IMG/VR virus record: IMGVR_UViG_3300008055_000095
Coordinates: 1 to 30,554 of that record
DNA from: a virus
Reading direction: 5' to 3' (one strand)
Length of the DNA stretch: 30,554 bases
Shown here: in pieces, positions 2,365 to 30,554 of the stretch
Position numbering within the stretch: the stretch's first letter is position 1
Layout of the letters: each line of letters opens with the position of its first letter
Program-made: the position numbers and the translations under genes
Notes under the pieces: model-generated
What the model saw: the letters and a program-made list of their open reading frames with translations, nothing else
Told to the model about the DNA's origin: nothing
Database searches by the model: none

Positions 2365-2574
2365 ATGATTGACCAACGTGTTTTTGCGTCTTGCACGGTC
2401 GAAGACCTTGGCCAGAGGCAGTTTGAAGTAAAGGTTTGGGGCGAAAAACCTTTTGACAATGAGCGCACCTATACATTGAGTGCAAAGGATGATAATTCTG
2501 CCGCGCAAGAAGGTATTCGGCTGTTCGTCGAAGAAATGGAATGTCTGCGAGACGCAGAGATAAAGGACGAGTGA
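2365..2574 (+). CDS. Hypothetical 69-aa protein between terL and portal
   Basis: The frame stays open further upstream, but the ATG at 2365 follows a good ribosome binding site (GAGGAG, 2353-2358) and falls just after the terL stop, so I chose it. The product starts MIDQRVFASC and ends LRDAEIKDE. It is acidic and looks like a small beta-rich fold (TVEDLGQRQFEVKVWG) followed by a helix (SAAQEGIRLFVEEMECL). Its stop codon overlaps the portal start by 1 nt. I recognise no family. Its place suggests a small accessory protein made with the packaging apparatus. Confidence 0.7.
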   Translation: MIDQRVFASCTVEDLGQRQFEVKVWGEKPFDNERTYTLSAKDDNSAAQEGIRLFVEEMECLRDAEIKDE

Positions 2575-4922
2575 TGGATAACGATCTCGGCATTGCCCCG
2601 ATGAACCTGCGTCTCCCCGGTGAGCCTGAGCCAGCCCTCCCTGATCCCACTGAGATCATCATTGAGATGGCTGAAGATGGCGCAGACACGCCGATCATGG
2701 ACGAGCACGGCAATGTGCTAGAGATCGAGCATGGCGATGGGTCGATCTCGGTCAGCCTTGACGGCTCTCCCATTGAGTCTGCTGAGGACGACGCTGACGA
2801 CCCCGACTGGTTCGACAACCTCGTTGACCGCATCCCTGAGGCCGAGCTTAGCCGCATCTCCAGCGAGTTGCTGTCGGGCATCGAGGACGACCTGACATCG
2901 CGCAACGAGTGGATCGAGAACCGGGCGCAGGGCATCAAGCTTCTGGGCCTCAAGATCGAGGTGCCAGGCGTCCAAGGGGCGAGCGACGGAGCCCCTGTTG
3001 AGGGCATGTCCAAAGTGCGCCACCCGCTGTTGCTGGAGGCCGTGCTGCGCTTCCAAGCCAATGCGCGCAGCGAGATGCTGCCGACCGACGGTCCGATCAA
3101 GATCCGCAACGATGACAACGACGCGACGGCGCAGGAGGACCTGACGGCCACTGCACTGCAACGCGACCTCAACCATTACCTGACTTCGACGGCATCGGAA
3201 TATTATCCCGACACCGACCGGATGCTGCTGATGCTGGGCTTTGGCGGCACGTCGTTCAAGAAGGTCTATTACTGCCCGTTGCGCAACCGCCCGGTCTCCG
3301 AGAGCGTGGATGCAGACGACTTGATCGTCAACAACGCAGCGACTGACTTGGAGAACGCCAAGCGCATCACGCATCGCATCATGATGCGGCCTTCAACGGT
3401 CAAGCGTATGCAGATCTTGGGCGTGTACCGCGACGTTGAGCTTGGTACGCCCAACATGCCCAAGCAGGATGCCTTCCAGAAGGAAGAGAAAGACCAGCAG
3501 GGCGTCTCGCAGCAGTCCACCAACCCGAGTGATCGCGACCGCGAGATCTACGAGTGCTACTGCGAACTCGACATTGATGGCTTTAATCACAAGTATAAGG
3601 GCAAGATCACGGGTCTTGAGATCCCTTATCGCGTGACGATTGACGTGTCGTCGAAGGAAATCCTGTCGATTGTCCGCAACTACAGCAACGAAGTTGAAGG
3701 GCTGCCCGTTGCCAAGAAGGTGTTTGTTAAGTACACCTTCGTGCCGGGTCTGGGCTTCTACGACATCGGCCTTCTGCATATTCTGGGCAACACCACCAAC
3801 GCCATCACGGCTGCTTGGCGCGAGTTGCTGGACGCTGGCATGTACTCGAACTTCCCCGGCTTCTTGTTGGCCGACACGGGTGCACGTCAGAACACCAACA
3901 TCTTTAGAGTCCCTCCCGGCGGCGGTGCGCTGGTAAAGACAGGTGGTATGCCGATCAGCCAAGCTGTGATGCCCCTTCCTTACCAGCCACCCAGCCAGGC
4001 GCTCATGCAGCTTGTCAACGACATGGCCCAGACGGGTATGCGCGTTGGCGGCACGTCGGAGATGCAGGTCGGTGAAGGCCGTCCGGACGCCCCTGTAGGC
4101 ACGACGCTGGCGCTCATCGAGCAGGCGACGAAGGTGCTGGACTCCGTGCACAAGCGGATGCACGCGGCACAGGCGGAGGAGTTCCGGCTGCTGATGGACG
4201 TGTTCCGTGAGAACCCGGAGAGCTTCTGGCAGCGCAACTTCAAGCCGACCATCCCATGGGATCAGGAGCGGTTCTTGTACGCGCTTGAGAACTACGACCT
4301 GACGCCACAGGCTGACCCGAACACAGCAAGCCATGGGCAGCGCATGATGAAGGTGGCGGCCTTGAAGCAGCTTCAGGCGCAGAACCCGTCCATGTACGAC
4401 CCCATCGCCATCGACACGGTTGCGTTGCAGACGCTTGGCTGGTCTAACCCTGCACAGTTCTTGGCACCGGCCAACGCCCAGCAGAAGCCGCCTCCAGAGC
4501 TTCTCCAAGCCCAGTCTAAGATGATGGCTGAGCAGAAGGAGGCGGACGCTCAGATGATTACCGCGCAGGCGCGGGCGGCTGAGACGCAGGCCAAGATCCA
4601 GATGGGTGCGTTCGCGCCTAAGCAGGATGGCGGCTTGCAAGGCCAAGGCCAGATCGACCCGATCAAGCTGATGGAGCTTCAGACGCGCAACCTTGAGCTT
4701 GAGCAGGATCGTCGGAACATGCTGCTGGAGTCTGAGAACCGCAAGCGTGACCGCGAGAGCCGTGAGCGCATCGAGGCGATGAAGTTTGCCGAAGAGATGG
4801 CTCGCAACCCAGAAGAGCTTCCTATCGCCAATAGCATCATCAGCGAAGAGATGCTAAAGCGTCTTGAGGCTAACGAACCGCCCTTGGAAGACAGGAACAG
4901 CGGTGTGATGGGTGAAGGCTAA
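2574..4922 (+). CDS. Portal protein (head-tail connector)
   Basis: The portal forms the dodecameric ring through which DNA is packaged and released. I place the start at 2574, overlapping the previous stop, with AAGGAC at 2563-2568 as ribosome binding site. An in-frame ATG at 2541 would add 11 residues inside the previous gene. The 782-aa product has an acidic N-terminus, a long mixed core, and a segment (GTSEMQVGEGRPDAP, then TTLALIEQATKVLDS) of the kind seen in portals of podovirus-like phages, followed by long helices. The last 150 residues are rich in Gln, Glu and Arg and predict as coiled coil, as in portal barrel regions. Position after terL supports the call. I did not see a motif that fixes the subfamily. 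Confidence 0.87.
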   Translation: MDNDLGIAPMNLRLPGEPEPALPDPTEIIIEMAEDGADTPIMDEHGNVLEIEHGDGSISVSLDGSPIESAEDDADDPDWFDNLVDRIPEAELSRISSELLSGIEDDLTSRNEWIENRAQGIKLLGLKIEVPGVQGASDGAPVEGMSKVRHPLLLEAVLRFQANARSEMLPTDGPIKIRNDDNDATAQEDLTATALQRDLNHYLTSTASEYYPDTDRMLLMLGFGGTSFKKVYYCPLRNRPVSESVDADDLIVNNAATDLENAKRITHRIMMRPSTVKRMQILGVYRDVELGTPNMPKQDAFQKEEKDQQGVSQQSTNPSDRDREIYECYCELDIDGFNHKYKGKITGLEIPYRVTIDVSSKEILSIVRNYSNEVEGLPVAKKVFVKYTFVPGLGFYDIGLLHILGNTTNAITAAWRELLDAGMYSNFPGFLLADTGARQNTNIFRVPPGGGALVKTGGMPISQAVMPLPYQPPSQALMQLVNDMAQTGMRVGGTSEMQVGEGRPDAPVGTTLALIEQATKVLDSVHKRMHAAQAEEFRLLMDVFRENPESFWQRNFKPTIPWDQERFLYALENYDLTPQADPNTASHGQRMMKVAALKQLQAQNPSMYDPIAIDTVALQTLGWSNPAQFLAPANAQQKPPPELLQAQSKMMAEQKEADAQMITAQARAAETQAKIQMGAFAPKQDGGLQGQGQIDPIKLMELQTRNLELEQDRRNMLLESENRKRDRESRERIEAMKFAEEMARNPEELPIANSIISEEMLKRLEANEPPLEDRNSGVMGEG

Positions 4923-4927
4923 GCGCG

Positions 4928-6160
4928 ATGAGCGAGATCGACAAAATTCTGCAAATTTTGGCTGAACATTACGGCAGCGATGATTATGTGCAGGACGCCC
5001 GCGATCTCTTTTCAAAGCGACAGAGCTTTGCAGAAGGGGGCTCACCTGATGACGACATTGTTGTCACGGGCCAACGCAATTTTAATGAATTTAGACCTCT
5101 AAACTTAGCAAACCTCTTTGAGGGCGGGGGCGGTTTTGCCCAGTCGTATTTTAATCCGTTTTTTGGCCCTTCGATAGACGACGCTGACCCTAATCTAAGC
5201 GAAGAACCTCCGGTTGAAGATGACGAAATTGTCGTTACTGCGCCAAAGACAACGGAACCTCCTTTTCCGTCAAGGTCGTTGTCAGTATCTTGGAGTCAAT
5301 CGGTCAGCGAACCAGAGCCTTCGGTTAGCGAAGAACCTCCGGTTGAAGATGACGAAATTGTCGTTACTGCACCAAAGACAACGGAACCTCCTTTTCCGTC
5401 TAGGTCGTTATCAGTATCTTGGAGTCAATCGGTCAGCGAACCAGAGCCTTCGTTTAGCGAAATTGAAGACATTGTCGTTACTGCACCAAAGACAACGGAA
5501 CCTCCTTTTCCGTCTAAGTCATTGTCAGTATCTTGGAGTCAATCGGTTAGCGAACCAGAGCCTTCGTTTAGCGAAATTGAAGACATTGTCGTTACTGCAC
5601 CAAAGACAACGGAACCTCCTTTTCCGTCAAGGTCGTTGTCAGTATCTTGGAGTCAATTTTCGTTTGAACCGACAGATCTGCCTCCAGAATCAACGACACC
5701 GCCTCCGACAACACAGCCTCCAACAACGTTTTCACTTCCGCCAACAACGCTGCCACCAGGCACACTTGGTTCGGTTCCAACAACTGCGCCTCCACGCACA
5801 GTTAGTGTAGTGTCAACACCGGCACTTACTTGGAACCCAAGCGCATTTCCTCCTAGCACAGGCTTTATGTTCCCTGCGGAATACACGCCGTTGCAGCAGT
5901 TTAATCTGCCGAACTATGCAAACGTCTATGACGTGTTGTTCCAAGGTCAGGGCGCAGATAGCGCACTGGGTCAGTCCATGTTGACGCCACCTGACCAGAT
6001 GGGGCGCTTAGACGCTGCAATGGCGGTTGCTCAGCAAGCTCAACCTTCCGCTCAACAACCTGCGCCTCAAGCAAATACAGGGGCTGGTAAAGCGCGTGGA
6101 GGTAGTGTAAACGACACCATTGACGGTATTATCGCATACCTTCAAAGCATTCGCCGGTAA
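4928..6160 (+). CDS. Repeat protein with five TonB-box-like motifs
   Basis: This 410-aa protein has four parts. Residues 1-40 form a short helical head. Residues 41-50 read DDDIVVTGQR, which matches the TonB box common at the N-terminus of TonB-dependent receptors. Residues 91-243 are four tandem repeats (43, 43, 38 and about 29 aa), each carrying (D/E)IVVTAPK and ending in a Ser/Trp-rich stretch. Residues about 245-310 are Pro/Thr-rich and probably extended. The C-terminus ends GKARGGSVND and a helix. No signal peptide or membrane segment is visible. Base composition looks more AT-rich than in the portal gene. It follows the portal by 5 nt, so it is probably made with virion proteins. No family is known to me; a role in TonB-assisted entry is inference. 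Confidence 0.75.
   Translation: MSEIDKILQILAEHYGSDDYVQDARDLFSKRQSFAEGGSPDDDIVVTGQRNFNEFRPLNLANLFEGGGGFAQSYFNPFFGPSIDDADPNLSEEPPVEDDEIVVTAPKTTEPPFPSRSLSVSWSQSVSEPEPSVSEEPPVEDDEIVVTAPKTTEPPFPSRSLSVSWSQSVSEPEPSFSEIEDIVVTAPKTTEPPFPSKSLSVSWSQSVSEPEPSFSEIEDIVVTAPKTTEPPFPSRSLSVSWSQFSFEPTDLPPESTTPPPTTQPPTTFSLPPTTLPPGTLGSVPTTAPPRTVSVVSTPALTWNPSAFPPSTGFMFPAEYTPLQQFNLPNYANVYDVLFQGQGADSALGQSMLTPPDQMGRLDAAMAVAQQAQPSAQQPAPQANTGAGKARGGSVNDTIDGIIAYLQSIRR
5198..5656 (+). repeat. Four tandem coding repeats (129, 129, 114, ~87 nt)
   Basis: Near-identical direct repeats start at 5198, 5327, 5456 and 5570. Units 1 and 2 differ at only a few bases. Units 3 and 4 share a variant beginning (AGCGAAATTGAAGACATTG) that lacks 15 nt, and unit 4 is cut short at its 3' end. 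All unit lengths are multiples of three, so the frame is kept. The high nucleotide identity, including synonymous sites, points to recent duplication or ongoing recombination. Confidence 0.93.
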
Positions 6161-6182: not shown

Positions 6183-7418
6183 ATGTCTGAAATGTCTCGC
6201 GCTGCCCGTCGCGCTATGAGGGCCAAAATTCACCGTATTACTCAGGCCACTTCGGACAAGGTTGATGCCTCCGATTACGGTCCTGAAGAAGTTCTTAACG
6301 CTGACGTTAAAACCGGTATGCGTCCAATCTCGCGTCGCGCCTATAAAAAGGGCGGCAAGGTTGTTGCTGTTACCGGCAAAGACGCCAAGCAGAATGCAGG
6401 TAAGAAGCCGCGCAATGGCTCTAAGCACCTTACCATCGACGGTCTTGTTAACCGCAATTACAAAGACGCCAATGAAGCCCGTGAAGGCATCAAGCATGTT
6501 GGCGCTCTGAAGCGTGGTGGCCGCGCAGGTAAAGCTGCTGGTGGCACTCCTGATGCTGGCGTCCCTAAGGATCGCTTCAGCTTCTCGCCTTCGTCAAAGG
6601 GCAAGGTTGCTGAGACCATGGGCTTCAAGAAGGGTGGACGCACCGGTAAGGATAACGGTGGCGGCCTCACTCGTCTGCCGACGACACCCACCGCAGAACG
6701 CGATTCGATGAACGCTCGCCAGCTTGAATTGCTTGGCAAAGCGGCTGCTGCTGATGCCGCCAAGCGGATTATTCCTGGTCGCACAAGCTCCCTTCCGGAA
6801 GCCGCTAAGCCCGCGTCAAAGCCCCGCAAGCATGGCGGCAAGGCTTGGGAAGGCTCTGCCAAGGACGAGTCTCAGGATAAGAAGCTGGCCAAGAAGTATG
6901 GCATGTCGATGGAAGCTTGGGAAAAGTCTTCCAAGGACAAGAAACACGACAAGCAGCATTCCATGAAGGGTCTCAAGACCGGTGGCATGGCGCTTGACGG
7001 TGAGCTTCAAGGCACGCGCCCCAAGGGCGGTCGCATTGCCAAGCGCGATGGCGGCAGCCTTGCTGGCCTTGAAATGAACAAGGGCGGTCGTGCTAAGCGC
7101 AAGGGCAACGGCAAGACCGACATCAACATTGTGATTTCGACGGGGAAAGGTGGTCAGCCAATGACGCCTGGAATGGGTGCCAACCCCTCAGGCATTCCTG
7201 TTCCAATCCCGCCGATGGGTGCAGGTGCGGGTCCGGCTATGCCTCCCGCAATGCCATCTCCGCAGGCCGCAGCAGGCGCACTCGGTGGCGGCGCACCTGT
7301 GCCGTTGGCTCGCAAAGCCGGTGGCCGCACCTATCGTTCTTACAAAGACATGGACGCAGGCGCTGGCAGCGGCTTGGGTCGTTTGGAAAAGACAGAAATT
7401 CAAAAACACAAACGTTAA
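6183..7418 (+). CDS. Basic Lys/Gly-rich protein with GG motifs
   Basis: A 411-aa, very basic protein. The ATG at 6183 (MSEMSRAARR) follows GGAGA at 6173-6177; an in-frame ATG at 6120 would lie inside the previous gene. The chain is low in hydrophobic residues and is punctuated by Gly-Gly motifs flanked by Lys/Arg (KKGGKVV, KRGGRAGK, KKGGRTGKD, KHGGKAW, KTGGMALDG, NKGGRAKRK, RKAGGRTY). A Pro/Ala/Met/Gly-rich stretch (about residues 320-385) precedes the C-terminus. Such a protein could bind DNA or a negatively charged virion surface. I know no functional assignment. It lies between portal and capsid-assembly genes and is followed at once by a terminator. Confidence 0.75.
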   Translation: MSEMSRAARRAMRAKIHRITQATSDKVDASDYGPEEVLNADVKTGMRPISRRAYKKGGKVVAVTGKDAKQNAGKKPRNGSKHLTIDGLVNRNYKDANEAREGIKHVGALKRGGRAGKAAGGTPDAGVPKDRFSFSPSSKGKVAETMGFKKGGRTGKDNGGGLTRLPTTPTAERDSMNARQLELLGKAAAADAAKRIIPGRTSSLPEAAKPASKPRKHGGKAWEGSAKDESQDKKLAKKYGMSMEAWEKSSKDKKHDKQHSMKGLKTGGMALDGELQGTRPKGGRIAKRDGGSLAGLEMNKGGRAKRKGNGKTDINIVISTGKGGQPMTPGMGANPSGIPVPIPPMGAGAGPAMPPAMPSPQAAAGALGGGAPVPLARKAGGRTYRSYKDMDAGAGSGLGRLEKTEIQKHKR

Positions 7419-7702: not shown

Positions 7703-8095
7703 ATGCCACATATGAATATGACCCATGATACAGATCCTAAGCAGACTTTGATCGATGCCCTTGGCGACATCAGCCAGTACAAGGTGTTTCACAACGAAAT
7801 CGTGGTCGCTGTTTATGTTCGTCCGGAAAAGACTGCGAGCGGGATTTATCTTCCTGACGCGCACCGCGAAGAAGACAAGGTCCAGGGCAAAGTTGGGCTT
7901 GTTGTAAAGATGGGCCCGGAAGCTTTTGAAGACCCCAACGGCAATTGGTTCCGCGATATGGACGTAAAACTGCACGATTGGGTTGTTTTCCGCCCATCTG
8001 ATGGCTGGAGCCAGACGGTGAACGGCGTTTTGTGCCGTGCTCTTAAGGACACCAACGTTCGCGGCAGCATCCCACATCCAGATATGGTTTGGTAA
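7703..8095 (+). CDS. GroES-like co-chaperonin
   Basis: A 130-aa protein with the Cpn10/GroES pattern. A beta strand (EIVVAVYV, 32-39) leads into a mobile-loop equivalent, PEKTASGIYLPD (41-52), where Ile48-Tyr49-Leu50 replaces the GroEL-binding Ile-Val-Leu of bacterial GroES. Then come KVQGKVGLVVKMGP (59-72) and DVKLHDWVVF (87-96), matching the RGEVLAVG and DVKVGDIVIF strands of GroES. An N-terminal extension of about 25 residues and the C-terminal tail GSIPHPDMVW are additions. By analogy with T4 gp31 it would cap host GroEL so that capsid protein can fold. It sits beside scaffold and capsid genes, as expected. The start follows GGAG at 7691-7694. Confidence 0.85.
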   Translation: MPHMNMTHDTDPKQTLIDALGDISQYKVFHNEIVVAVYVRPEKTASGIYLPDAHREEDKVQGKVGLVVKMGPEAFEDPNGNWFRDMDVKLHDWVVFRPSDGWSQTVNGVLCRALKDTNVRGSIPHPDMVW

Positions 8096-14520: not shown

Positions 14521-16221
14521 ATGTCTAACACTACTATCCCTCAATTACCGCTTGCCGTCTCTCTCGACGGAACCGAACAGCTTGAAATCGTTCAGGCGGG
14601 TGTTTCTCGGCGCACGACTGCTGGCGACATTGCAGGTCTTCAGGCAGGGCCAACTGGTCCGACAGGCGCTCAAGGCGGCACAGGTCCCACCGGCCCTACC
14701 GGTCCTACAGGGCCAACGGGTGTTCAAGGTACTGCTGGTAACGTAGGTCCGACAGGTCCAACGGGCATTACTGGTCCTACGGGCGCTACTGGCCCAACCG
14801 GCCCTACAGGATCGCAGGGCGCTCAGGGTATCACTGGCGCTACTGGCCCCACGGGTCCGACAGGTGCTACTGGCCCGACCGGCGCAGCTTCGACTGTTGC
14901 AGGTCCTACTGGTGCTACGGGCCCAACAGGTCCTACGGGCGCAAGCGGTGACTTGTTTGCTACCACTAGCACGACATCCCTGACCATTGGTACGGGTCTA
15001 CAGACCCTGACTGTCGGCACCGGTCTTGCCTATACGACCGGCCAGAGCGTCATCATCGCCTACAGCCCAGCTTATGAGATGATGGGCACGGTATCGTCTT
15101 ATAACAGCGTTACCGGCGTCATGGTTGTCGATGTGAACACGACTGTTGGCAGCGGCACACTCAATAGCTGGACGGTCAACATCAGCGGTGCCCCTGGCGT
15201 TGCAGGTCCGACAGGTCCTACAGGAACCGCTGGTTCTAATGGCCCCACAGGGCCGACTGGCGCACAAGGTATTGCAGGTCCGACAGGTGCTACTGGCCCT
15301 ACAGGCGCTCAAGGCGATCTTGGCCCGACAGGTCCTACCGGCCCAACAGGTTCGACAGGTGCAACAGGCCCGATTGGTCCTACCGGGCCTAATGGTCTTA
15401 CTGGTCCTACCGGCCCTACAGGCGCTACGGGTACACCCGGCGCTGGTGGCGCTCTAGGTTATTGGGGTTCGTTCTGGGATACCACTGACCAGACGGCAGC
15501 GGCAGCTAACACGGCCTATGCGGTAACTATGAATAGTGCCGATGCAGCGAATAACGGCGTTAGCGTTGTGTCTGGTAGTCGAGTTACTTTTGCGAATGCG
15601 GGCGTCTACAGCCTTACGTTCTCAATTCAGTTTGTTAACACGGACACGCAAATCCATGACGTGAACGTCTGGCTGCGCAAGAATGACAGCGGCAGCACGG
15701 GCGATGTTCCGGACAGCGATACCCGTCTCAGCATTCAGCAGCGGCATGGCGGCGTCGATGGCTACGGCCTGATGACAGTCAACTTTGTTCTAAGCCTTGC
15801 AGCCGCTGATTATATTGAGATGATCTGGGCTCCCACAAACACTCAGATTTCTATTCAATCGATTCCGGCTGGGACGACACCTGTTTCTCCAGCCATTCCG
15901 GGCGTTATTTTCACAGCCACGCAAGTCATGTACACCCAGCTTGGCCCGACTGGTCCTACGGGTTCGACTGGCGCTGTTGGTCCGACGGGTCCCACGGGCC
16001 CGACTGGTCCTACAGGTGCAGACTCCACTGTCGCTGGTCCGACTGGTCCTACGGGTCCAACTGGCACCGCTGGTTCGACGGGTCCGACTGGCCCAACTGG
16101 TACTGCTGGTACGGCTGGCCCTACAGGTCCAACTGGCACTGCTGGTGGCACAGGTCCCACTGGTCCGACAGGCGCTGCGGCGACTGGCGTCATCGGTAAA
16201 ATCATGATACTTGGCTTCTAG
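14521..16221 (+). CDS. Collagen-like tail fibre with C1q/TNF-like domain
   Basis: A 566-aa fibre. Residues 1-40 are an N-terminal attachment-type region ([20 protein letters not shown]). Three blocks of Gly-Pro-Thr/Gly-Ala-Thr triplets (43-143, 226-309, 475-555) should form collagen-like triple helices. Between them lie a beta domain (145-222) and a C1q/TNF-like jelly-roll candidate (about 311-470) with [20 protein letters not shown] and [16 protein letters not shown]-type strands ([13 protein letters not shown], 355-367). The C-terminus ends [11 protein letters not shown] trimeric host-recognition fibre is inferred. The interruption by globular domains gives alternating rods and knobs. Confidence 0.82.
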
Positions 16222-16232
16222 GAGGCTGTAAT

Positions 16233-16628
16233 ATGGCATCGCCCAATCTTGCAAACGTAACCACAATTACAGGGACGACGACGTATTTCACGCCGTCTGG
16301 CACTACTGCGGTTGTGCTTTTGCCGAATGCGGCGTCTTCCGGTCAGGTGTTCCGGATCAATCAGATTGTGGCTGCAAACGTGAATGGCACCAATGCCGTT
16401 GATGCAACGGTTTCCATTTACACAAATGGCGCTGTTGCTCAGGGGTCTGCCCCTTCTGGCGGTACTGCATATCCGATTGCCTCGACCATTTCGGTCCCGG
16501 CTGACGCTTCTTTAATCGTGGTCGATAAGACGACGGCCATCTATTTGATGGAAGGCACGTCGATCAGCGTCACTTCTGGCACGGCAAACGGGATTACTTT
16601 TAGCGTTTCCTACGAAATTATGTCGTAA
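16233..16628 (+). CDS. Putative small tail-associated structural protein
   Basis: A 131-aa protein with a strong AGGAGG site (16220-16225) that overlaps the stop of the collagen-like gene. It is rich in Thr, Ser, Ala and Val in alternating strands, with VVLLPNAASSGQVFRINQI and VDATVSIYTNGAVAQGSAPSGG, and ends ISVTSGTANGITFSVSYEIMS. The strand pattern and size resemble small beta-sandwich proteins found in phage fibre clusters. No catalytic residues are seen. It may be a tip or baseplate-like accessory of neighbouring fibres. Confidence 0.6.
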   Translation: MASPNLANVTTITGTTTYFTPSGTTAVVLLPNAASSGQVFRINQIVAANVNGTNAVDATVSIYTNGAVAQGSAPSGGTAYPIASTISVPADASLIVVDKTTAIYLMEGTSISVTSGTANGITFSVSYEIMS

Positions 16629-16640
16629 GGGTAGTAGCCT

Positions 16641-17771
16641 ATGCGCCGCTACCAAGCCAGTATCATGAGCGGCACTTACAGACCGCTTCTTACGCCGAAC
16701 GCTCCAACAAGTGTAACAGCTACGGCTGGTAGTGCGTCTGCGTCAGTGGCTTTTACTGCGCCCTCGAACACGGGCGGTGCTGCGATTACGTCTTACACGG
16801 TTATTTCTTCAGGCGGCCAGATCGCAACGGGCACATCTTCCCCGATCACAGTCTCTGGTCTCACAAACGGCACGGCTTACACGTTCACCGTTTACGCAGA
16901 AAATACCTATGGCCCGGGGGCAAGGAGCGGTCCTTCAAATTCGGTGACGCCGCAGCCATCGGTAAGTGTTGACTACCTTGTTGTCGCAGGCGGTGGTGGC
17001 GGCGCTAACGTGTTTGGTGGTGGTGGTGCAGGCGGTTTCCGTACAGGAACAGGATTTTCTGTTATACAAGGAACCACTTATACAGTCACGGTTGGCGCTG
17101 GCGGCGCTGGCGGTACCGCGTCTAGCAGTAGCCCAATAAATGGCACGGCAGGGTCAAACTCAGTATTCTCAACCATTACTTCTGCTGGTGGCGGACGCGG
17201 TGGCGCGCAAGCTGCTGGTAGTGCTGGTGGCTCTGGCGGTGGCGGCGGTGACTGGGCTGCTGGCGCGTATGCTGGCGGCGCTGGTAACACGCCAAGCACA
17301 ACTCCATCGCAGGGCTCAAACGGTGGTGCTGGTTCTGGCATAGATGGCGGCGCTGGTGGCGGTGGTGGCGCTACTTCTGCGGGCGCAAACGGCGGCGTAA
17401 ATGGCGGTAACGGCGGCGCTGGTACTGCCTCTACAATTACTGGCTCGTCCGTAACTTATGCTGGCGGTGGCGGTGGCGGGGCATTTACCGACATCCATGG
17501 CGGCACAGGCGGTTCTGGTGGCGCAGGTGGCGGTGGCGCTGGGGGCGCTAACCCGAATGGGAATGGAGCAAACGGAACTGCCAACAGAGGCGGCGGTGGT
17601 GGTGGCGGCACGCGGGCCTATGACAGTGTGGGCGGCGGTTCTGGGGGTTCTGGCGTTGTCATCATCCGTGCGCTTCAGGCGGCTGCTTCCACAACCGGGT
17701 CACCAACTGTAACAACCAGCGGAAGCTATACAATCTACACGTTCACGGCCTCTGGCTCGATCACTTACTAG
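16641..17771 (+). CDS. Fibronectin III plus glycine-rich tail adhesin
   Basis: A 376-aa protein. Residues about 18-108 form a fibronectin type III domain (APTSVTATAGSASASVAFTA, then YTVISSGG, SGLTNGTAYTFTVYAEN). The remainder opens DYLVVAGGGGGA and is dominated by runs of Gly with Ala, Ser and Asn, ending GSPTVTTSG and TFTASGSITY. Glycine-rich repeats of this kind can form polyglycine II sandwiches, as in the Salmonella phage S16 adhesin gp38, where loops bind the receptor. The Gly-rich half is paralogous to the next gene. A second in-frame ATG at 16665 (MSGTYR) is an alternative start. Confidence 0.8.
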   Translation: MRRYQASIMSGTYRPLLTPNAPTSVTATAGSASASVAFTAPSNTGGAAITSYTVISSGGQIATGTSSPITVSGLTNGTAYTFTVYAENTYGPGARSGPSNSVTPQPSVSVDYLVVAGGGGGANVFGGGGAGGFRTGTGFSVIQGTTYTVTVGAGGAGGTASSSSPINGTAGSNSVFSTITSAGGGRGGAQAAGSAGGSGGGGGDWAAGAYAGGAGNTPSTTPSQGSNGGAGSGIDGGAGGGGGATSAGANGGVNGGNGGAGTASTITGSSVTYAGGGGGGAFTDIHGGTGGSGGAGGGGAGGANPNGNGANGTANRGGGGGGGTRAYDSVGGGSGGSGVVIIRALQAAASTTGSPTVTTSGSYTIYTFTASGSITY

Positions 17772-17780
17772 GATACTGAG

Positions 17781-18626
17781 ATGCCTAACTATTCCGGCAT
17801 GTGGTCAATGGAACAGCAGTTTCAGGCGATTGGGTCTGGAAGCTGGCCTGCGCCGCCAACAATTGAATACTTGGTTATCGCAGGTGGTGGCGCTGGCGGT
17901 AGCTACAGCAATGGTGGCGGTGGCGGCGCTGGTGGCTATCGGACCGCGTCAGGCGTGGCTATTGCATTTGGCAGCGCATACACCGTAACCGTTGGTGCTG
18001 GGGGCGCAGCGGCTGGTTCAACCGTTCCGGGTGGTAATGGTAGTAACTCAGTTTTTGGTGCTATCACCGCGACAGGCGGCGGTGGCGGCGGCTCGGGTAA
18101 TAATCCTGTTGGAGGTAATAGCGGCGGCTCCGGGGGCGGCGGCGGTGGCACAGGTGGCGCTGGAACATCTGGCCAAGGCAACGCTGGCGGAAACTCTGAC
18201 TATAGCGTCGGTCCGTATGGCGGCGGTGGCGGTGGCGGCGCTGGCGCTGTTGGCGGCAATGCTGGAACCGGTTTCTCTGGCACTGGTGGCGCTGGACTTA
18301 GTTCTTCAATTACAGGAACGGCTGTAACTCGCGGTGGCGGCGGTGGCGGTTCTGGAGATACTGCTGCGGCGGGTGGCGCTGGCGGCGGTGGCGCTGGCGG
18401 AGGATTGAGCGGAGGCGCCGGGACGGCAGGCACTGCTAATACGGGAGGCGGTGGTGGCGGTGGCTATGCTGGCGGTCCTACTTATATTGCAGGAACAGGC
18501 GGATCTGGTGTTGTTATCATTAGCACCACAGCAACTGCCACATCGACTACTGGCTCGCCAACTGTTACAACGTCAGGTAATTTTAACATTTACACGTTCA
18601 CGAGCAGCGGCTCGATCACATTCTGA
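17781..18626 (+). CDS. Glycine-rich tail adhesin, paralogue of the previous gene
   Basis: A 281-aa protein. After a short N-terminus it reads EYLVIAGGGAGG and is then dominated by Gly runs, matching the Gly-rich part of the previous product in its opening, its strand (AYTVTVGAGG against TYTVTVGAGG), the GSNSVFGAIT motif and its end (GSPTVTTSG, then TFTSSGSITF). It lacks the fibronectin domain. Polyglycine II-type adhesion domain is the best structural guess. Two adhesins may broaden host range or form a mixed tip. Confidence 0.78.
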   Translation: MPNYSGMWSMEQQFQAIGSGSWPAPPTIEYLVIAGGGAGGSYSNGGGGGAGGYRTASGVAIAFGSAYTVTVGAGGAAAGSTVPGGNGSNSVFGAITATGGGGGGSGNNPVGGNSGGSGGGGGGTGGAGTSGQGNAGGNSDYSVGPYGGGGGGGAGAVGGNAGTGFSGTGGAGLSSSITGTAVTRGGGGGGSGDTAAAGGAGGGGAGGGLSGGAGTAGTANTGGGGGGGYAGGPTYIAGTGGSGVVIISTTATATSTTGSPTVTTSGNFNIYTFTSSGSITF

Positions 18627-18634
18627 GGTTAGCT

Positions 18635-18973
18635 ATGGCGCACTTTGCAAAAGTTGAAAACGACATCGTCACTCAGGTCATTGTGGCCGAGCAAGATGTA
18701 ATTGACAGTGGCCTGTTTGGAGAGGGGTGGGTACAGACCTCGTATAACACCCATGGCGGCCAGCATCCTGAAGGCCGTCCGCTACGCAAGAATTTTGCGG
18801 GGGTCGGCTATACCTACGATGCAGAACGTGACGCCTTTATTCCTCCGCAAACATTTCCTAGCTGGTCGCTGAATGAGGAAACGTGTCTTTGGGAACCGCC
18901 TGTTACATATCCCAATGACGGTAAGCGCTATGTGTGGAACGAAGAAACACTGACTTGGGTTGAAAGTCTATGA
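18635..18973 (+). CDS. Conserved phage tail-region protein, 112 aa
   Basis: A 112-aa protein starting MAHFAKVENDIVTQVIVAEQ. It contains GWVQTSYNTHGGQHPEGRPLR (residues 30-51), NFAGVGYTYDAERDAFIPPQ, FPSWSLNEETCLWEPPV and ends RYVWNEETLTWVESL. The set HFA-V, W-QTSYN, R-N-AGxGYTYD, AFI-P, PSW-L-----W-PP is a conserved phage pattern often seen by tail fibre genes; I know no proven role, but a fibre chaperone or capping role is plausible. Its TGA overlaps the ATG of the LamG fibre gene by 4 nt, so the two are probably coupled. Confidence 0.7.
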   Translation: MAHFAKVENDIVTQVIVAEQDVIDSGLFGEGWVQTSYNTHGGQHPEGRPLRKNFAGVGYTYDAERDAFIPPQTFPSWSLNEETCLWEPPVTYPNDGKRYVWNEETLTWVESL

Positions 18974-21900
18974 GCGACTATCAGGGCAACATCATTATCA
19001 AGAACCCTACGGCTCCTGCTGGGCCGTTTGAGAATGGCGCTGCTCCTGGTGTTTGGAAGCTCAGTGAAGTGCTGCCTTTTGTCCGTCAGGGCATCTGGCC
19101 GACGCAAGGCATTCAAGGGAAAGACCCGTACTTTCCCTTGAATGCCTTGCTGCTCTCAACAACGTCCCTCAGCAACGCGAACAACAACCTGTTCGTGGAC
19201 AGCAGTGGCGCGTTCAATCCGATCAGCCGCAACGGCAACACCACGCAGGGCAGCTTCACGCCTTATGGGGTTAATTGGTCGAATTACTTTGACGGGTCTG
19301 GAGACTATCTGACAATTGCGAGTAATGCTGCCTTTGGTATGGGCACCGGAGACTTCACTATAGAGTGCTGGATTAATCCCACTGCTTTCACAGGTAGTGG
19401 TAACGTGCTTGTTGATATGCGCTCCGGCACTGAGCCTTCTGTGCGGCCTGATCTTGAGTATAATAGCTCTGGTACTCTCAATTACCGCGTTAACGGTTCA
19501 ACCGTAATTAGCGGCGGCACGCTTGTAATTGGTACTTGGTCGCACGTTGTCATTTGCCGCTCGGGAACGACAACCAAAATGTTCCTTAACGGAACGCAGG
19601 TCGGTTCTAGTTACACAGACAGCAATAACTACGGCTCGTCCGCCGCCTGCCGGATTGGTGCGGACGACGACGGATCACCAAATGCTTACGTCAATGGCTA
19701 TATGTCGAATGTTCGCGTCGTCAAAGGCACCGCAGTCTACACGTCCAACTTCACAGTTCCAACAGCCAACCTTACCGCAATTAGCGGCACCAGCTTGCTA
19801 ACCTGCCAGAGCAACCGCTTCCTTGATGCAAGCACAAATAACTTCGCGGTCACTGCCAATGGCAACACCGCAGTCACCGAATTCAGCCCGTTCTCGCCCG
19901 CCTATCCCGGCATGACCGGCTACAACCAGAGCGACATTCAGTATTGGTCCGGGTATTTCGATGGGAGTGGGGATTATCTCTATTACGGAGCAAACTCCGC
20001 GTTTGCCTTTGGCACGGGAAATTTCACGGTAGAGTTTTTTGTCTATACGACAAGCACCGCCAGCCAAATGATTTACGATACCATCCAGCCCGGAATTAGC
20101 GGCGGCGGGTCAAACAGGTTTTACGTCCACACAAACACAAGCCAGCAGATTGTTGTCGGCCCCGCAACAAGTACGTTGACAACGACTGGGACAATTACTC
20201 TCGGAGCGTGGAACCATATCGCCGTCGTTCGGAATGGCTCGACGAGGACGGTGTACATCAATGGTGTGTCTGCGGGGTCAGATACTTTTAGCGGTGATCT
20301 GAGTTCTGGGTATGCCTCGGTTGGGTTTGACCGGGCATCTGGTGGCTCCATTATCCTGAATGGATACCTTTCCAATTTGCGGGCAGTTAAAGGTACAGCG
20401 GTCTATACCAGCACATTCACGCCGCCTACCGCTCCGCTCACTGCGATCAGCGGCACATCATTGTTGGTCTGCCAGTCAGCCGCATTTACGGACAATAGCA
20501 CGAACAACTTCGTCGTCACCATCAACGGCAACACCACCGTCACGGGTAACAATCCGTTTCAGGCGGGGCTGTACAGCAACTATTTTGATGGGTCGGGCGA
20601 CTATTTCACCGTTCCATACACGACGGCAAACTTCGACTGGTGGACTTCCGGCAGCGATTTCACAATTGAGTATTGGTTTTTTGCCAATAGCTTGACCGGC
20701 ATTTCATATAATGATGCTGGCATTCTTCACTCAACCGCAGTGGGCAATCGCAGCGCCACCGCTGCTACGGATTACTGGAGCTTTGGCCCTACATCAGCAG
20801 GAACAGTTACTTTTTACTACTACAATGGCGGCGGAAATGCCGTGACTAGCAGCGCCACATTTACTAATAATTCTTGGAACCATGTCGCTATGACGAAAAC
20901 CTCGTCTGGCATTACGGTATTTGTTAACGGTGTGGCGGGTACAACAACAGCCATTAGTGGCACTCCGCAGTCTAGTACTGGGGTTCCGTTGACTGTTGGT
21001 CAAGGTAACAATTCTAGCTTCAACGGCTACATTAGTAACCTGCGTATTGTGCGCGGAACGGCTATATACAGCGGCAACTTCACTGTCCCGACTTCATCCT
21101 TGACTGCGGTGACGAACACTAAGCTGCTCACCTGTCAGTCAGCACGGTTTATTGATAACAGCACCAATGCGCTGACGCTGACTATTACCGGAAACACCTC
21201 CGTCCAGCCCTTCGATCCCTTCTACACGTCCACTATCGCCAGCAACGGCGGGTCGATGTACTTTGATGGGACGGGGGATTATCTGCGTGGCGCTAATGGC
21301 CCGGCTTTCCAATTCGGAACTGGAGACTTCACGGTTGAAATGTGGGCCTACTTTATGGACCCCTCAGCAACTAATAGGCCGCTATTTGATAATGGCGCAA
21401 CCTCCAACACCGGACGGTTGCTAATTAGGCAAGGCAACGATGCTGGTACGGCAAACGTAGTTAATGCGTTCGTATCTGGCACAACAGCAAGTTCTCCAAC
21501 CATACAGTTTTATTCATGGACCCATGTGGCGGTCGTCCGGCAATCAGGTACAGTTAAGATTTATATCAACGGTGTAGGCGGTACGGGGGTTACAGCTACG
21601 GCTGATCTTAGCCAGAATGCCTGTTTGCTCGGTGCGTTTTACGATGTCTTGGCAGCAAACTTCACCGGATATATGAGTAATGTCCGTGTCACCAAAGGCA
21701 CCGCAATCTACACGGCTAACTTCACACCGCCCACTGCGCCTGTCACGCCATCAGCAAACACTAGTCTCCTCGTCAACGGCATGAACGCTGGTGCATACGA
21801 CGCAACGGCGATTAATGACATGGAGACTGTCGGCGACGCGCAGGTTAGCACGGTGCAGAGTAAATTTGGCGGGTCGTCGATGTATTTCGATGGTAGCGGC

Positions 21901-22443
21901 GACAACTTATTCATGCCCAGTGCGACCAACATGAACTTTGGCACTGGAAATTGGACCATTGAGTGCTGGGTCTACGTTTCCACGCGCACTACGAACTATC
22001 CGCTGATCTTCGGCAACAATAGAGGTAGCTTTACGACGGATGCGCTTGCTTTAACAAATAGCAATGCTGACAGTGTATCCTACAACGATAAGTTCGTAAT
22101 TGCATGGGGTAGCGGGGGCTGGTCCAGCCCATCTGCTGGAAATAGCCAGCTTTTGGTTGCTAACGTGACCAACAGCACCGGCACTTGGTATCATCTCGCC
22201 ATCGTCCGGGATAGCAGCACGTCGGTTAAGATGTTTAGAAACGGCACTCAGGTAGCTAACGCTACGGTATCTTCTGGCGCAACTTTCAACTGGGGCTACA
22301 GCGGGGCTTTCGTGGGCGGCGGCAACTGGGACGGTGCTCAAGGCTACTTCAATGGTTATATCGACGATCTCCGCATCACCCGGGGCGTCGCCCGCTACAC
22401 CACCACATTCACGCCGCCGACGCAGGCGTTCCCAATTTACTAA
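18970..22443 (+). CDS. Large tail fibre with five LamG-like lectin domains
   Basis: A 1157-aa protein, overlapping the previous stop by 4 nt. Residues 1-95 are a probable virion-attachment region (APGVWKLSEVLPFVRQGIWP). Five concanavalin-like (LamG_3 type) domains follow, starting near residues 105, 327, 537, 763 and 970, each opening with YFDG(S/T)GDx, then FGTG(D/N)(F/W)T(I/V)Exx, W(S/N/T/Y)H(V/I/L)A, a (F/Y)(L/I/V)NG(T/V) strand and GYxSNxRxxKGTAxYT. Between domains lie SLLxCQSxRFxDxSTNN linkers. Such domains often bind glycans; the fibre may read several sugars. Inside the 5' end lies a perfect 20-bp inverted repeat (19104-19150). Domain recognition is by conserved strands, not alignment. 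Confidence 0.88.
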   Translation: MSDYQGNIIIKNPTAPAGPFENGAAPGVWKLSEVLPFVRQGIWPTQGIQGKDPYFPLNALLLSTTSLSNANNNLFVDSSGAFNPISRNGNTTQGSFTPYGVNWSNYFDGSGDYLTIASNAAFGMGTGDFTIECWINPTAFTGSGNVLVDMRSGTEPSVRPDLEYNSSGTLNYRVNGSTVISGGTLVIGTWSHVVICRSGTTTKMFLNGTQVGSSYTDSNNYGSSAACRIGADDDGSPNAYVNGYMSNVRVVKGTAVYTSNFTVPTANLTAISGTSLLTCQSNRFLDASTNNFAVTANGNTAVTEFSPFSPAYPGMTGYNQSDIQYWSGYFDGSGDYLYYGANSAFAFGTGNFTVEFFVYTTSTASQMIYDTIQPGISGGGSNRFYVHTNTSQQIVVGPATSTLTTTGTITLGAWNHIAVVRNGSTRTVYINGVSAGSDTFSGDLSSGYASVGFDRASGGSIILNGYLSNLRAVKGTAVYTSTFTPPTAPLTAISGTSLLVCQSAAFTDNSTNNFVVTINGNTTVTGNNPFQAGLYSNYFDGSGDYFTVPYTTANFDWWTSGSDFTIEYWFFANSLTGISYNDAGILHSTAVGNRSATAATDYWSFGPTSAGTVTFYYYNGGGNAVTSSATFTNNSWNHVAMTKTSSGITVFVNGVAGTTTAISGTPQSSTGVPLTVGQGNNSSFNGYISNLRIVRGTAIYSGNFTVPTSSLTAVTNTKLLTCQSARFIDNSTNALTLTITGNTSVQPFDPFYTSTIASNGGSMYFDGTGDYLRGANGPAFQFGTGDFTVEMWAYFMDPSATNRPLFDNGATSNTGRLLIRQGNDAGTANVVNAFVSGTTASSPTIQFYSWTHVAVVRQSGTVKIYINGVGGTGVTATADLSQNACLLGAFYDVLAANFTGYMSNVRVTKGTAIYTANFTPPTAPVTPSANTSLLVNGMNAGAYDATAINDMETVGDAQVSTVQSKFGGSSMYFDGSGDNLFMPSATNMNFGTGNWTIECWVYVSTRTTNYPLIFGNNRGSFTTDALALTNSNADSVSYNDKFVIAWGSGGWSSPSAGNSQLLVANVTNSTGTWYHLAIVRDSSTSVKMFRNGTQVANATVSSGATFNWGYSGAFVGGGNWDGAQGYFNGYIDDLRITRGVARYTTTFTPPTQAFPIY
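19104..19150 (+). repeat. Perfect 20-bp inverted repeat, 7-nt loop, inside the LamG fibre gene
   Basis: Bases 19104-19123 are the exact reverse complement of 19131-19150, with loop ACCCGTA at 19124-19130. The arms encode QGIQGK and FPLNAL in the reading frame, about residues 46-60 of the fibre protein, just after its attachment region. No T-tract follows. A stem this long will almost never arise by chance in coding sequence. Confidence 0.95.
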
Positions 22444-22944: not shown

Positions 22945-24021
22945 ATGTCCGCCACGAGGCCGCGCATTTGCGTCTACGCCATCTCTAAAAACGAAGAGAT
23001 GTTCGTCGAGAGGTTCTGCAATTCATCCAAGGATGCAGACCTCATCCTCATAGCGGACACAGGTAGCACTGATCGAACGGTAGACTTAGCAGAGCAGTGC
23101 GGTGCGCAGGTTCATCATATCTGCATCACGCCTTGGCGGTTCGACGATGCTCGTAATGCCGCCTTGGCGCTGATCCCCAAAGACATCGACATTTGCGTCA
23201 GCCTCGATCTTGATGAGGAGCTTCAGCCAGGTTGGCGTGAAGAGATCGAGCGCGTCTGGACTGAAGACACGACGCGCCTGCGCTACAAGTTTGATTGGGG
23301 CGCAGGCATCGCCTTTTATTATGAAAAGATCCATGCTCGGCACGGCTACCGCTGGACGCACCCGTGCCATGAGTATCCGATTCCGTACCTGATCGATGAG
23401 AAATACGCGCAGACCGACATGCTGCTGGTGATCCATAAGCCCGATCCGACCAAGAGCCGTGGTCAGTATCTGCATCTGCTTGAGATGTCGGTTAAAGAAG
23501 ACCCAAATGACCCGCGTAACGCCTTTTACTACGCCCGCGAACTCTCTTTCCACGGTCAGTGGGAGCGCGCTATTGAGGAGTGTAACCGCTACTTGTCCCT
23601 CCCCGGAGCCAACTGGGCAAATGAGCGTTGCTACGCTTATCGCGTTATCTCTCGTTGCTATAACGAGCTTGGCGACTGGGAAAATGCGATTAAAGCTGCT
23701 CGCCAAGGTGTGATTGAAGCACCTTATACCCGTGAACCTTGGTGTGAGATTGCAAAACTTGCCTACCAGCGTCACAAATGGGCCGAATGCTATGGCGCAG
23801 CCATGTCAGCACTGGCCATTGAGCAGCGTGAATGGGTTTACACCGTCGATCCTGAGGTTTGGGGCGCTATGCCACATGACTATGCCAGCATCGCTGCATG
23901 GCATTTAGGGATGAAAGAAGAGGCTCTAAAGCATATTCGACTTGCTATTGAGCTTTCTCCGGAGGATGAAAGGCTCAAGGCTAATCTCGTCTTTATGGAA
24001 GACAATGAGGGTGAGGAATAA
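22945..24021 (+). CDS. GT2-like glycosyltransferase with TPR-like C-terminus
   Basis: A 358-aa protein. The N-terminal half has GT-A/family 2 features: RICVYAISKNEEMFVERF (7-24), ADTGSTDRTVDLA (37-49), FDDARNAAL (66-74) and the metal-binding DxD at 88-90 (SLDLDEEL). Family 2 enzymes transfer a sugar from a nucleotide-sugar donor. Residues about 170-345 form helical repeats of TPR type (PRNAFYYARELSFHGQWERA, then RCYNELGDWENAIKAA). No signal peptide or membrane segment is visible, so it should act in the cytoplasm. GAGG at 22931-22934 precedes the start. Its place among adhesins suggests it may modify a virion protein or host surface precursor. Confidence 0.85.
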   Translation: MSATRPRICVYAISKNEEMFVERFCNSSKDADLILIADTGSTDRTVDLAEQCGAQVHHICITPWRFDDARNAALALIPKDIDICVSLDLDEELQPGWREEIERVWTEDTTRLRYKFDWGAGIAFYYEKIHARHGYRWTHPCHEYPIPYLIDEKYAQTDMLLVIHKPDPTKSRGQYLHLLEMSVKEDPNDPRNAFYYARELSFHGQWERAIEECNRYLSLPGANWANERCYAYRVISRCYNELGDWENAIKAARQGVIEAPYTREPWCEIAKLAYQRHKWAECYGAAMSALAIEQREWVYTVDPEVWGAMPHDYASIAAWHLGMKEEALKHIRLAIELSPEDERLKANLVFMEDNEGEE

Positions 24022-27901: not shown

Positions 27902-28402
27902 ATGCTAAATGAGACCGAAGAGCTTGAGATCCGCATCGCCACCCCAGACGATATGGACCAAGTTATGCAGTTGGCGTTCATGGCTGCGGAAGAAAACGGT
28001 TTTATATCTCCTAATACCGAAATGCTGGTTAACGAAGTATGGGCAGCACTTAACCAACAAAGTGGTTTATGCGCTGCAATTGGCAAACCTGGGGGCGAAA
28101 TTGAAGGTGGCGTTTTGCTCAGAATTGGCAATATGTGGTATTCGGATGCTCCCGTTCTTGAGGAACGTGTGATCTTTATCCACCCGGATTATCGCAACGC
28201 TGCTGGGGGTCGAGCGAGCAAGCTTTGCGATTTTAGTAAAAAAGTTGCTGATAGCCTTGGTATTCCTCTTTTGATTGGTGTATTGTCCAACCACAGAACT
28301 GCGGCTAAAATACGCTTGTATGAACGTCAGTTTGGGAAGCAAAGCGGTGCTTTCTTTCTCTACGGCGCTAAAACTGGCGAATTGTCTACTACGGAGCATT
28401 GA
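27902..28402 (+). CDS. GNAT-family N-acetyltransferase
   Basis: A 166-aa protein, a normal GNAT length. The N-terminus has the strand-helix opening ELEIRIATPDDMDQVMQLAF. The acetyl-CoA motif A lies at 90-111: VIFIHPDYRNAAGGRASKLC, with the beta strand, R98 and the GGRA turn where the pyrophosphate binds. A later strand LLIGVLSN (123-130) and helix RTAAKIRLYERQFG (132-145) complete the fold. GNATs move acetyl from acetyl-CoA to an amine. Substrate unknown; a host or virion protein is possible. AAGGAT at 27891-27896 forms a leader (AAGGATATTTTATG) nearly identical to those of the scaffold gene and the gene after it. Confidence 0.8.
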   Translation: MLNETEELEIRIATPDDMDQVMQLAFMAAEENGFISPNTEMLVNEVWAALNQQSGLCAAIGKPGGEIEGGVLLRIGNMWYSDAPVLEERVIFIHPDYRNAAGGRASKLCDFSKKVADSLGIPLLIGVLSNHRTAAKIRLYERQFGKQSGAFFLYGAKTGELSTTEH

Positions 28403-28404
28403 GT

Positions 28405-30554
28405 ATGGGCGGGTCGAGCACTAGCACGCAAACAGTTACTGTTCCGCCCGACGTTCTGGCCCGCTACAACGCTGTAAACACTCGCGCAGAAGAAACTGCT
28501 CAGCGTCCTTTCGTCCCTTACGGGACTGATCCTAGCGCTTTTGTTGCTCCACTTAGTCCGACCCAACAGGCTGGTATTTACGGCACTAACGTCGCTTCGA
28601 CGATGGCGCAGCCGTTCTACGGCCAAGCTGTAAATCAATTGATGGGTGCTCAGCAGGCGGCTGTTCCGTTCTATGGCTCAGCCGCTCAGCTTAATATGCA
28701 GAGCGCCCGCGCTGTTAATCCCCAGCAACTGGGTGCACAGCAAATTGGCCAGTATATGAGTCCGTATCTCGGCACGGTGCTTCAGGGAACCGCTGCGCTC
28801 CAAAACCAGATGAACCAGCAGGCGATGTCTGGCCAGTTGGGCAGCGCCATCCGTCAGGGTGCATTTGGTGGAGATCGAGCCGGTATTGCTGCCGCTAACC
28901 TTGCTCAGCAGCAGCGTTTGGCTGATGCAAAGACCTTCTCTGACATCCTTAATCAAGGCTATGGCCAAGCTCTCGGCACTGCTCAGCAGCAACAACAGCT
29001 TGGTCTAAGCGCTGAGCAGGCAAACCGTGCGGCCCTTGCACAAGCTGGTCAGCAGCAAGCAGCCCTTGGTCAAGGTCTCTATGGTATTGGTTCGGGTACA
29101 TCGCAGCAGCTTGCAGCCTTGGGTCAAGGCGCTCAGGCCGCAGGTCTTGCCGGTGCTCAAGCGCAGCTTGGCGCTGGTCAGGCTCAGCAGCAGACAGACC
29201 AAGCTGGTCGTACTGCGCTGTACAACCAGTTCCTGCAACAGCAGTCCTATCCTTTCCAAGTTGCGCAGTTCCTTGCCAACATCGCCATGGGCACAGGCTC
29301 TTTGTCCGGTTCGACCACGACAACGAACCAGCCGGGCGGCTTGTTCTCGGATCGCCGCTTGAAGGAAAACGCTCAGGTTATTGGTAAGACGTTTGACGGG
29401 CAGCCGATCTACAAGTTCAACTACAAGGGTGATGACACGACGCAAATCGGCCTCATGGCCCAGAACGTTGAAAAGCATCATCCTGAGGCGGTTGGTCTCG
29501 CTGGCGGCTACAAGACCGTCAACTACGACAAGGCAACGCATGACGCTGCCAAGCGTGGGCATTTCGCTGGTGGTGGTTATGCCAGCATGGGCGGTGGCGT
29601 GATGCCGTCCAACGCAGGTGAAGGGTTCGCTGATGGCGGCTACACGGGATACGATCCCAGCCTAATGCAGCAGATCCTTGCTAGTTATCAGCAGATGTAT
29701 GCTCCACTTGGCGGACTTGGCGCTGCTGAGGGAACAATTAGCGGTGTTGGTCGTAATATCCCAATGCAGGCCGCTGCTCAGCGCGGGCTGATGACGGCTG
29801 GTGATCTGCCGAAAACGACTTCTGGCATCGAGCAGATGAAGGCGCTTGCCGATACGGCTAGTGGGATTAAAGAATTTGCTACTGACGCCAAAGATTTTGG
29901 AAAAGACATAAAAGACTTCTTCAAAAAGAAGCCTGAAGAAGAGGACGAGGACACCGAAAAAGCCGCAAATGGCGGCTTGATGGGTTACGCTTCCGGTGGG
30001 ACTCCAATGCCCTATGAGAAGTATATGTCTGGTCCTCAGTTGGACATTCCTGGCGAAGACTCTGCTGAGAAAGCGCGGGAACTGCAAAAGGCAGCACAGC
30101 TAGGTAAGCCGCGTAGTGCCGTTGAAGATGTTAAAGACATCGCTAAAACGGCTGCCACTGTAATGGCTATGTTCTCGGACAAGCGTCTTAAGGAAAACGT
30201 CAAGCCTATTGGTAAGACTTTCGATGGCCAGACGGTCTACAGTTACAACTACAAGGGCGACAAGACGACGCAAATCGGTCTGATTGCCCAAGAAGTTGCG
30301 CGTCATCATCCGAAGGCTGTGTCGCACATCGGTAAGTATAAGACTGTCGATTACGACAAGGCTACGGGTCTTGCCGCTAAACGCGGTCATTTTGCTGTTG
30401 GCGGAGAAACTGAGGAAGAAGAGGATACGCCCGAGCTTCTCGACCTCGACGCAACATTGATGAAGGGCATCAAGCCTGACGCCTCCAAGAGCTTTCTCCA
30501 GCAGCTAATGGAAGAAAGCGAAGAGTCATCCAAGGAAGAAGCTGAGACTGAAAA
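28405..30554 (+). CDS. Large Gln/Ala-rich protein with two S74-type modules (3'-truncated)
   Basis: The frame opens at ATG 28405 (GGAG at 28393-28396) and stays open for 716 codons to the window end, so the C-terminus is missing. Residues about 50-310 are Gln/Ala/Gly-rich amphipathic helices (GAQQIGQYMSPYLGTV, then LAQQQRLADAKTF), like internal or ejection proteins. Two modules follow: SDRRLKENAQVIGKTFDGQP near residue 315 and SDKRLKENVKPIGKTFDGQT near 591, each with IGLxAQ(N/E)V and Y-KTV-YDKAT. This is the Peptidase S74 / intramolecular chaperone pattern. S315/K320 and S591/K596 match its Ser+5-Lys catalytic pair. Each is followed by a GHFAxGG motif. Such modules normally end trimeric fibres, so this placement is unusual. 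An ejection role is inferred from position and composition. Confidence 0.78.
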   Translation, partial: MGGSSTSTQTVTVPPDVLARYNAVNTRAEETAQRPFVPYGTDPSAFVAPLSPTQQAGIYGTNVASTMAQPFYGQAVNQLMGAQQAAVPFYGSAAQLNMQSARAVNPQQLGAQQIGQYMSPYLGTVLQGTAALQNQMNQQAMSGQLGSAIRQGAFGGDRAGIAAANLAQQQRLADAKTFSDILNQGYGQALGTAQQQQQLGLSAEQANRAALAQAGQQQAALGQGLYGIGSGTSQQLAALGQGAQAAGLAGAQAQLGAGQAQQQTDQAGRTALYNQFLQQQSYPFQVAQFLANIAMGTGSLSGSTTTTNQPGGLFSDRRLKENAQVIGKTFDGQPIYKFNYKGDDTTQIGLMAQNVEKHHPEAVGLAGGYKTVNYDKATHDAAKRGHFAGGGYASMGGGVMPSNAGEGFADGGYTGYDPSLMQQILASYQQMYAPLGGLGAAEGTISGVGRNIPMQAAAQRGLMTAGDLPKTTSGIEQMKALADTASGIKEFATDAKDFGKDIKDFFKKKPEEEDEDTEKAANGGLMGYASGGTPMPYEKYMSGPQLDIPGEDSAEKARELQKAAQLGKPRSAVEDVKDIAKTAATVMAMFSDKRLKENVKPIGKTFDGQTVYSYNYKGDKTTQIGLIAQEVARHHPKAVSHIGKYKTVDYDKATGLAAKRGHFAVGGETEEEEDTPELLDLDATLMKGIKPDASKSFLQQLMEESEESSKEEAETE

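Follow-up and report, generated by a model that had tools for sequence, protein, structure and literature searches.

The 30,554-base IMG/VR virus record analysed here in full (the window) encodes, directly 3' of an SU10-type portal gene, an orphan protein of 410 residues, P0001, with five motifs that resemble the TonB boxes of bacterial receptors. The motif is in excess over permuted controls and recurs in other phage proteins that are encoded next to the portal or that reach the periplasm. Tentatively, we read P0001 as an accessory protein of the virion of a podovirus-like phage, an ejection protein with TonB boxes that are pulled or anchored by the host motor. The middle of P0001, rich in Pro, Ser and Thr and probably mostly disordered, would offer two independent TonB boxes, of which one has expanded to four copies by a recent duplication. 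With DNA ejection P0001 would pass into the periplasm, where a box would add a beta-strand to the C-terminal domain of the host TonB, and the ExbB-ExbD-TonB motor would then pull or anchor the ejected material, as with group B colicins. The features on which the argument draws are the following.

2541 to 4922, + strand: SU10-type portal protein, directly upstream of P0001 (Pfam SU10_portal, E=4e-18; PHROG portal)
4928 to 6160, + strand: P0001, orphan protein of 410 residues with five TonB-box-like motifs (translation)
4928 to 5047, + strand: N-terminal segment of P0001, predicted helical (residues 3-35), ending FAEGG (low-confidence single-sequence AlphaFold model)
5048 to 5077, + strand: box 1, DDDIVVTGQR (residues 41-50), outside the tandem array (translation, codons)
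5195 to 5680, + strand: tandem array of four units, each a box with a Pro/Ser/Thr-rich linker (recently duplicated DNA)
5219 to 5248, + strand: box 2, DDEIVVTAPK (residues 98-107; translation)
5348 to 5377, + strand: box 3, DDEIVVTAPK (residues 141-150; translation)
5462 to 5491, + strand: box 4, IEDIVVTAPK (residues 179-188; translation)
5576 to 5605, + strand: box 5, IEDIVVTAPK (residues 217-226; translation)
5681 to 5830, + strand: Pro/Thr-rich stretch of P0001 (about residues 252-301; translation, composition)
6086 to 6157, + strand: C-terminal GKARGGSVNDTIDGIIAYLQSIRR of P0001, resembling the GG-x-V...AL ends of proteins in the same slot of related phages
6183 to 7418, + strand: next gene, starting MSEMSR, with many KKGG/RGG motifs, conserved in related phages (comparison with relatives)

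The five motifs that the first-pass annotation had read in P0001 are present in frame, DDDIVVTGQR at residues 41-50 and [DE]IVVTAPK with its D or E at residues 100, 143, 181 and 219, and this frame is preferred over the two alternatives by codon usage. A six-frame scan of the window for the looser pattern [DE][ILV][ILV]VT[AG] returned these five boxes and IDLLVTA near 11664, and the count of [DE]IVVT[AG] expected in composition-shuffled P0001 is about 9.5e-5. Each box has the core acidic-I-V-V-T-A/G, which continues as GQR in box 1 and as APK in boxes 2-5. The likeness to TonB boxes pointed out there goes beyond a chance pentapeptide, with acidic residues before the core and K/R at the third position after the T (T+3), the register seen in TonB receptors. 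Our reference set for these flanks was Sphingomonas. In Sphingomonas sp. RIT328 (G001), [DE]IVVT[AG] occurs 51 times and the reversed pattern once; 41 of the 51 sites are followed on their own strand, within 150 bp, by a Plug domain, and 24 of 29 Sphingomonas motifs have K/R at T+3. Since these sites precede Plug and share the K/R, the phage motif matches the receptor TonB box in both core and flanks (the [DE]IVVT[AG] core, an acidic or Pro/Ala-rich lead, K/R at T+3), box 1 having the Sphingomonas receptor form. The other 10 sites of this genome do not lie just upstream of Plug and include a Pro-rich two-box stretch in L473, so that non-receptor Sphingomonas proteins may carry TonB boxes too.

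The repetition of the box and its spacing had also been pointed out; the motifs stand, and the spacing is explained by recent DNA duplication. Boxes 2-5 are a single event, a recent tandem duplication of units of 114-129 bp (TRF span 5350-5657, 95% matches). Because the linkers were duplicated along with the boxes, neither the even spacing nor the mutual conservation of boxes 2-5 is a sign of selection, and we dropped this conservation as support for box function. Box 1 lies outside the array, uses other codons for V, V and T, continues with other residues downstream and has a receptor-like G-x-R end. The number of independent boxes is therefore two.

It is possible that the box simply forms part of a structural beta-repeat or of a beta-prone low-complexity linker, its likeness to TonB boxes being convergent and without TonB function. 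We consider this rather unlikely. A single-sequence AlphaFold model draws strands at boxes 2-5 and at the SLSVSWSQSV that follows, at low confidence (the box regions, rich in Pro, Ser and Thr, have pLDDT below 50, and the model is too poor for a fold search), and such strands of a possible beta-repeat weaken the case for TonB boxes on an ejected protein. It is also consistent with a beta-repeat that copies 2-5 arose by simple DNA duplication, and that a Chloroflexota protein has IVVTATPT repeats without the acidic residue; to our knowledge, this phylum is generally without TonB. However, the box occurs once more, as box 1, away from the repeat and in other codons, and the acidic residue before and the K/R after the core match receptor boxes; both count against a beta-repeat.

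The position of the gene places P0001 within the virion module. It starts a few bases past the stop of the portal gene, whose product has hundreds of relatives, and it is followed by the MSEMSR gene (the listed reading frame begins at a TTG at 6120; relatives begin at MSEMSR). In the relatives, the interval between portal and MSEMSR is mostly filled by one or more genes for long, variable proteins, many with a GG...AL type end, and some of these have SLT, M15 peptidase, ART-PolyVal, InPase or, weakly, ParB-like domains. Polyvalent proteins, marked by such domains, are held to be packaged and injected with the phage DNA (PMC5512222). Thus P0001 occupies the same portal-side slot in which its relatives carry domains of the polyvalent or ejected proteins described by Iyer et al. 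(2017), but unlike polyvalent proteins, which have several enzymatic domains, it has none. Indeed, Pfam, PHROGs, a phage collection (tblastn) and IMG/VR yielded neither homologues nor domains for P0001. Within this group the box was seen in P0001 only: in the 80 closest portal relatives no box was found, the five of P0001 being the only ones across 225,000 amino acids, nor does one occur in the 42 kb read of an isolate relative, Caulobacter phage RW. The box is therefore optional in this phage group, which weakens the proposal that it serves an ejected protein. Slot proteins of the relatives (L002-L081) often share a tail of the form xKKGGxVRxALMIAKGxKKR or GG...VDxAL..., whatever their middle, and the end of P0001 (6086-6157) is similar; this tail could be a packaging or portal-targeting tag.

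A search of IMG/VR phages for two boxes about 30-40 residues apart gave 19 stretches, 14 of them in-frame multi-box proteins by reading, and most of these proteins form one family, A2 (L332 type), unrelated to P0001. The 55 nonredundant A2 members together have 53 occurrences of [DET]IVVT[AG], where permuted orders average 0.18. The count of 53 includes a homologous GDIVVTG site alternating with other sequences and comes from related members, so that not all occurrences are independent. Multiple EIVVTG/EIVVTA boxes, 30-40 residues apart, are set in Pro-rich linkers, and outside the GDIVVT site 17 of 41 A2 boxes have K/R at T+3 (background 4.7%). The first-pass annotation had proposed to compare boxes with linkers among homologues; the searches found none for P0001, but in the unrelated A2 family the boxes are kept while the linkers change. 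This, together with the near absence of permuted orders, argues against a beta-repeat. The A2 gene lies immediately downstream of an SU10 portal gene in 48 of 48 cases, with a major capsid gene downstream in 37 of 37. Like P0001, A2 is thus encoded directly 3' of an SU10-type portal and has its boxes in Pro-rich linkers; unlike P0001, it belongs to a more canonical SU10 portal and capsid lineage. The A2 slot is the P0001 slot in a different lineage. Outside boxes and linkers no homology to P0001 was found, blastp against the A2 contigs matching only box and linker regions of L131 and L184, and the A2-type DYERYGFGPEAMFF end is absent from P0001. At least one box is present in 37 of the 55 members and the strict motif is missing in 18; in isolate relatives the interval between portal and scaffold usually holds only small genes, and the 362-residue slot protein of the isolate phage C72C1 has no box. 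The 18 A2 members and the C72C1 protein also count against an ejected TonB-box protein.

The motif extends further across IMG/VR phages. We scanned for [DE]IVVTAP, with [DE]VITVAP as the permuted control, and compared the make-up of the matches listed, since raw totals are not comparable. Among these matches, Pro-rich surroundings were found for 23 of 45 motif reading frames versus 2 of 24 controls, and, once homologues were collapsed, for 19 of 41 versus 2 of 18 (Fisher p=0.016). K/R at T+3 was present in 11 of 40 phage reading frames among the matches listed (background 8%, p=2.4e-4), but the comparison with the permuted control within the same matches (1 of 18) is not significant by itself (Fisher p=0.08), which again tempers the TonB reading. 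Many carriers are proteins of the tail or of lysis. L131 combines six strict boxes (six or seven in all) with a tape-measure-like C-terminal domain; L322, L555 and L556 match tape-measure proteins, L149 a tail protein with lysin activity, L095 a baseplate hub and L127 tail as well as peptidase/lysozyme families. In the endolysins L100 and L197 the box is close to the N-terminus, and L159 is lysozyme-like by reading of its sequence. Alignments of homologous endolysins with L100 never begin before query residue 4, and most begin at residue 14 or beyond it. Searches by tblastn with the L131 box array and against PHROGs with box peptides gave nothing usable. Endolysins and the baseplate hub have one N-terminal box and no repeat, a further point against a structural beta-repeat. 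That a virion-module protein with this motif might be linked to the periplasm, as first suggested, agrees with its presence in other phage proteins that are ejected into the periplasm or act there. The exceptions are a single-stranded DNA-binding protein (SSB, L172) and a head protein (L092); as neither needs TonB, both weaken the proposal. The SSB (L172:3320-4213) has EEEIVVTAPAKPAP in its C-terminal linker and is a cytoplasmic exception to the periplasmic pattern.

Perhaps this short linear motif serves to bind something other than TonB, for example a phage protein involved in assembly or packaging, or a different protein of the periplasm. The carriers are mostly virion or lysis proteins, A2 is tied to the interval between portal and capsid, and the head protein fits such a role as well. 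Yet the carriers span unrelated phages and functions, including endolysins, which are not virion proteins, so that a common host partner is more economical, and the resemblance to receptor boxes continues beyond the core. We therefore regard another partner as improbable. It is more improbable still that the boxes are decoys, several copies of which would tie up or jam TonB, either following ejection or when the cell lyses, and so starve the Ton system or exclude TonB-dependent phages or bacteriocins, since multivalency, with five boxes in P0001 and six or seven in L131, is offset by the single box of most carriers, and P0001 has no apparent signal peptide, which leaves ejection or lysis as its routes to TonB, the former delivering few copies; flooding TonB is a possible use of the boxes among several.

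An ejected protein with TonB boxes has counterparts in known systems. Group B colicins and S-type pyocins, which enter the cell from outside, have a TonB-box-like motif in a disordered region. Colicin B is no longer imported when its TonB box is deleted, and it can bring single-stranded DNA in with it (PMC8546555). P0001 has the motif in common with these bacteriocins but is encoded in a phage head module. To call it a colicin would be wrong, since Pfam and PHROG searches found neither a receptor-binding nor a toxic domain, although it may work like one. Nor is it a TonB-dependent receptor: such receptors combine a plug and a barrel with one box, whereas P0001 has five boxes, is phage-encoded and matches neither domain in Pfam, and no Plug was found within the window. 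Entry of the phages T1 and phi80 is linked to the Ton system (PMC11658791), but there the known TonB box is that of the host receptor FhuA, whereas the boxes of P0001 are encoded by the phage. In the open-access literature searched, with most subscription papers outside its scope, we found no description of a phage-encoded TonB box. The reading with which the analysis began is partly borne out, in the likeness and the recurrence of the motif; the repeat spacing lends it no support, and the close portal relatives without a box speak against it.

A wider proposal, which we consider doubtful, is that several phage lineages have independently put TonB boxes on proteins that reach the periplasm, namely portal-adjacent ejection proteins, tape-measure proteins, tail lysozymes and endolysins, and that phage material in the envelope is thereby pulled, anchored or gated by the Ton motor, in what would be the phage equivalent of colicin import. 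If true, phages would bring their own handle for the Ton motor, whereas T1 and phi80 depend on TonB through a host receptor. It would also provide, for TonB-rich bacteria, a concrete and testable route for energy-dependent steps of phage entry and lysis, as well as a sequence signature with which to find further cases.

In cellular genomes, a tandem scan of contigs returned mostly low-complexity proteins and unrelated pairs of IVVT, such as IVVTGNTVIDA and IVVTAHRREN in a protein that recurs, the only TonB-box-like cases being L473 from Sphingomonas and L431 from Chitinophagaceae. The latter (L431:861-2810) is a BlaR1-like membrane protein of 649 residues with five (E)(I/V)VVTGYPTK repeats, a cellular case of multiple TonB-box-like motifs. 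Elsewhere in the window, the head module includes a gene for a GroES-like co-chaperonin (7703-8095). Proteins with collagen-like GPTGPTG, Gly-rich or laminin-G-like repeats follow one another at 14521-22443 and are probably tail fibres. A protein at 28399-30552 has several GG motifs and two copies of the endosialidase intramolecular chaperone domain (Peptidase_S74), one at about residues 315-380 and one at about 590-655, and a beta-1,4-glycosyltransferase-like gene lies at 22945-24021 (PHROG E=5e-106).
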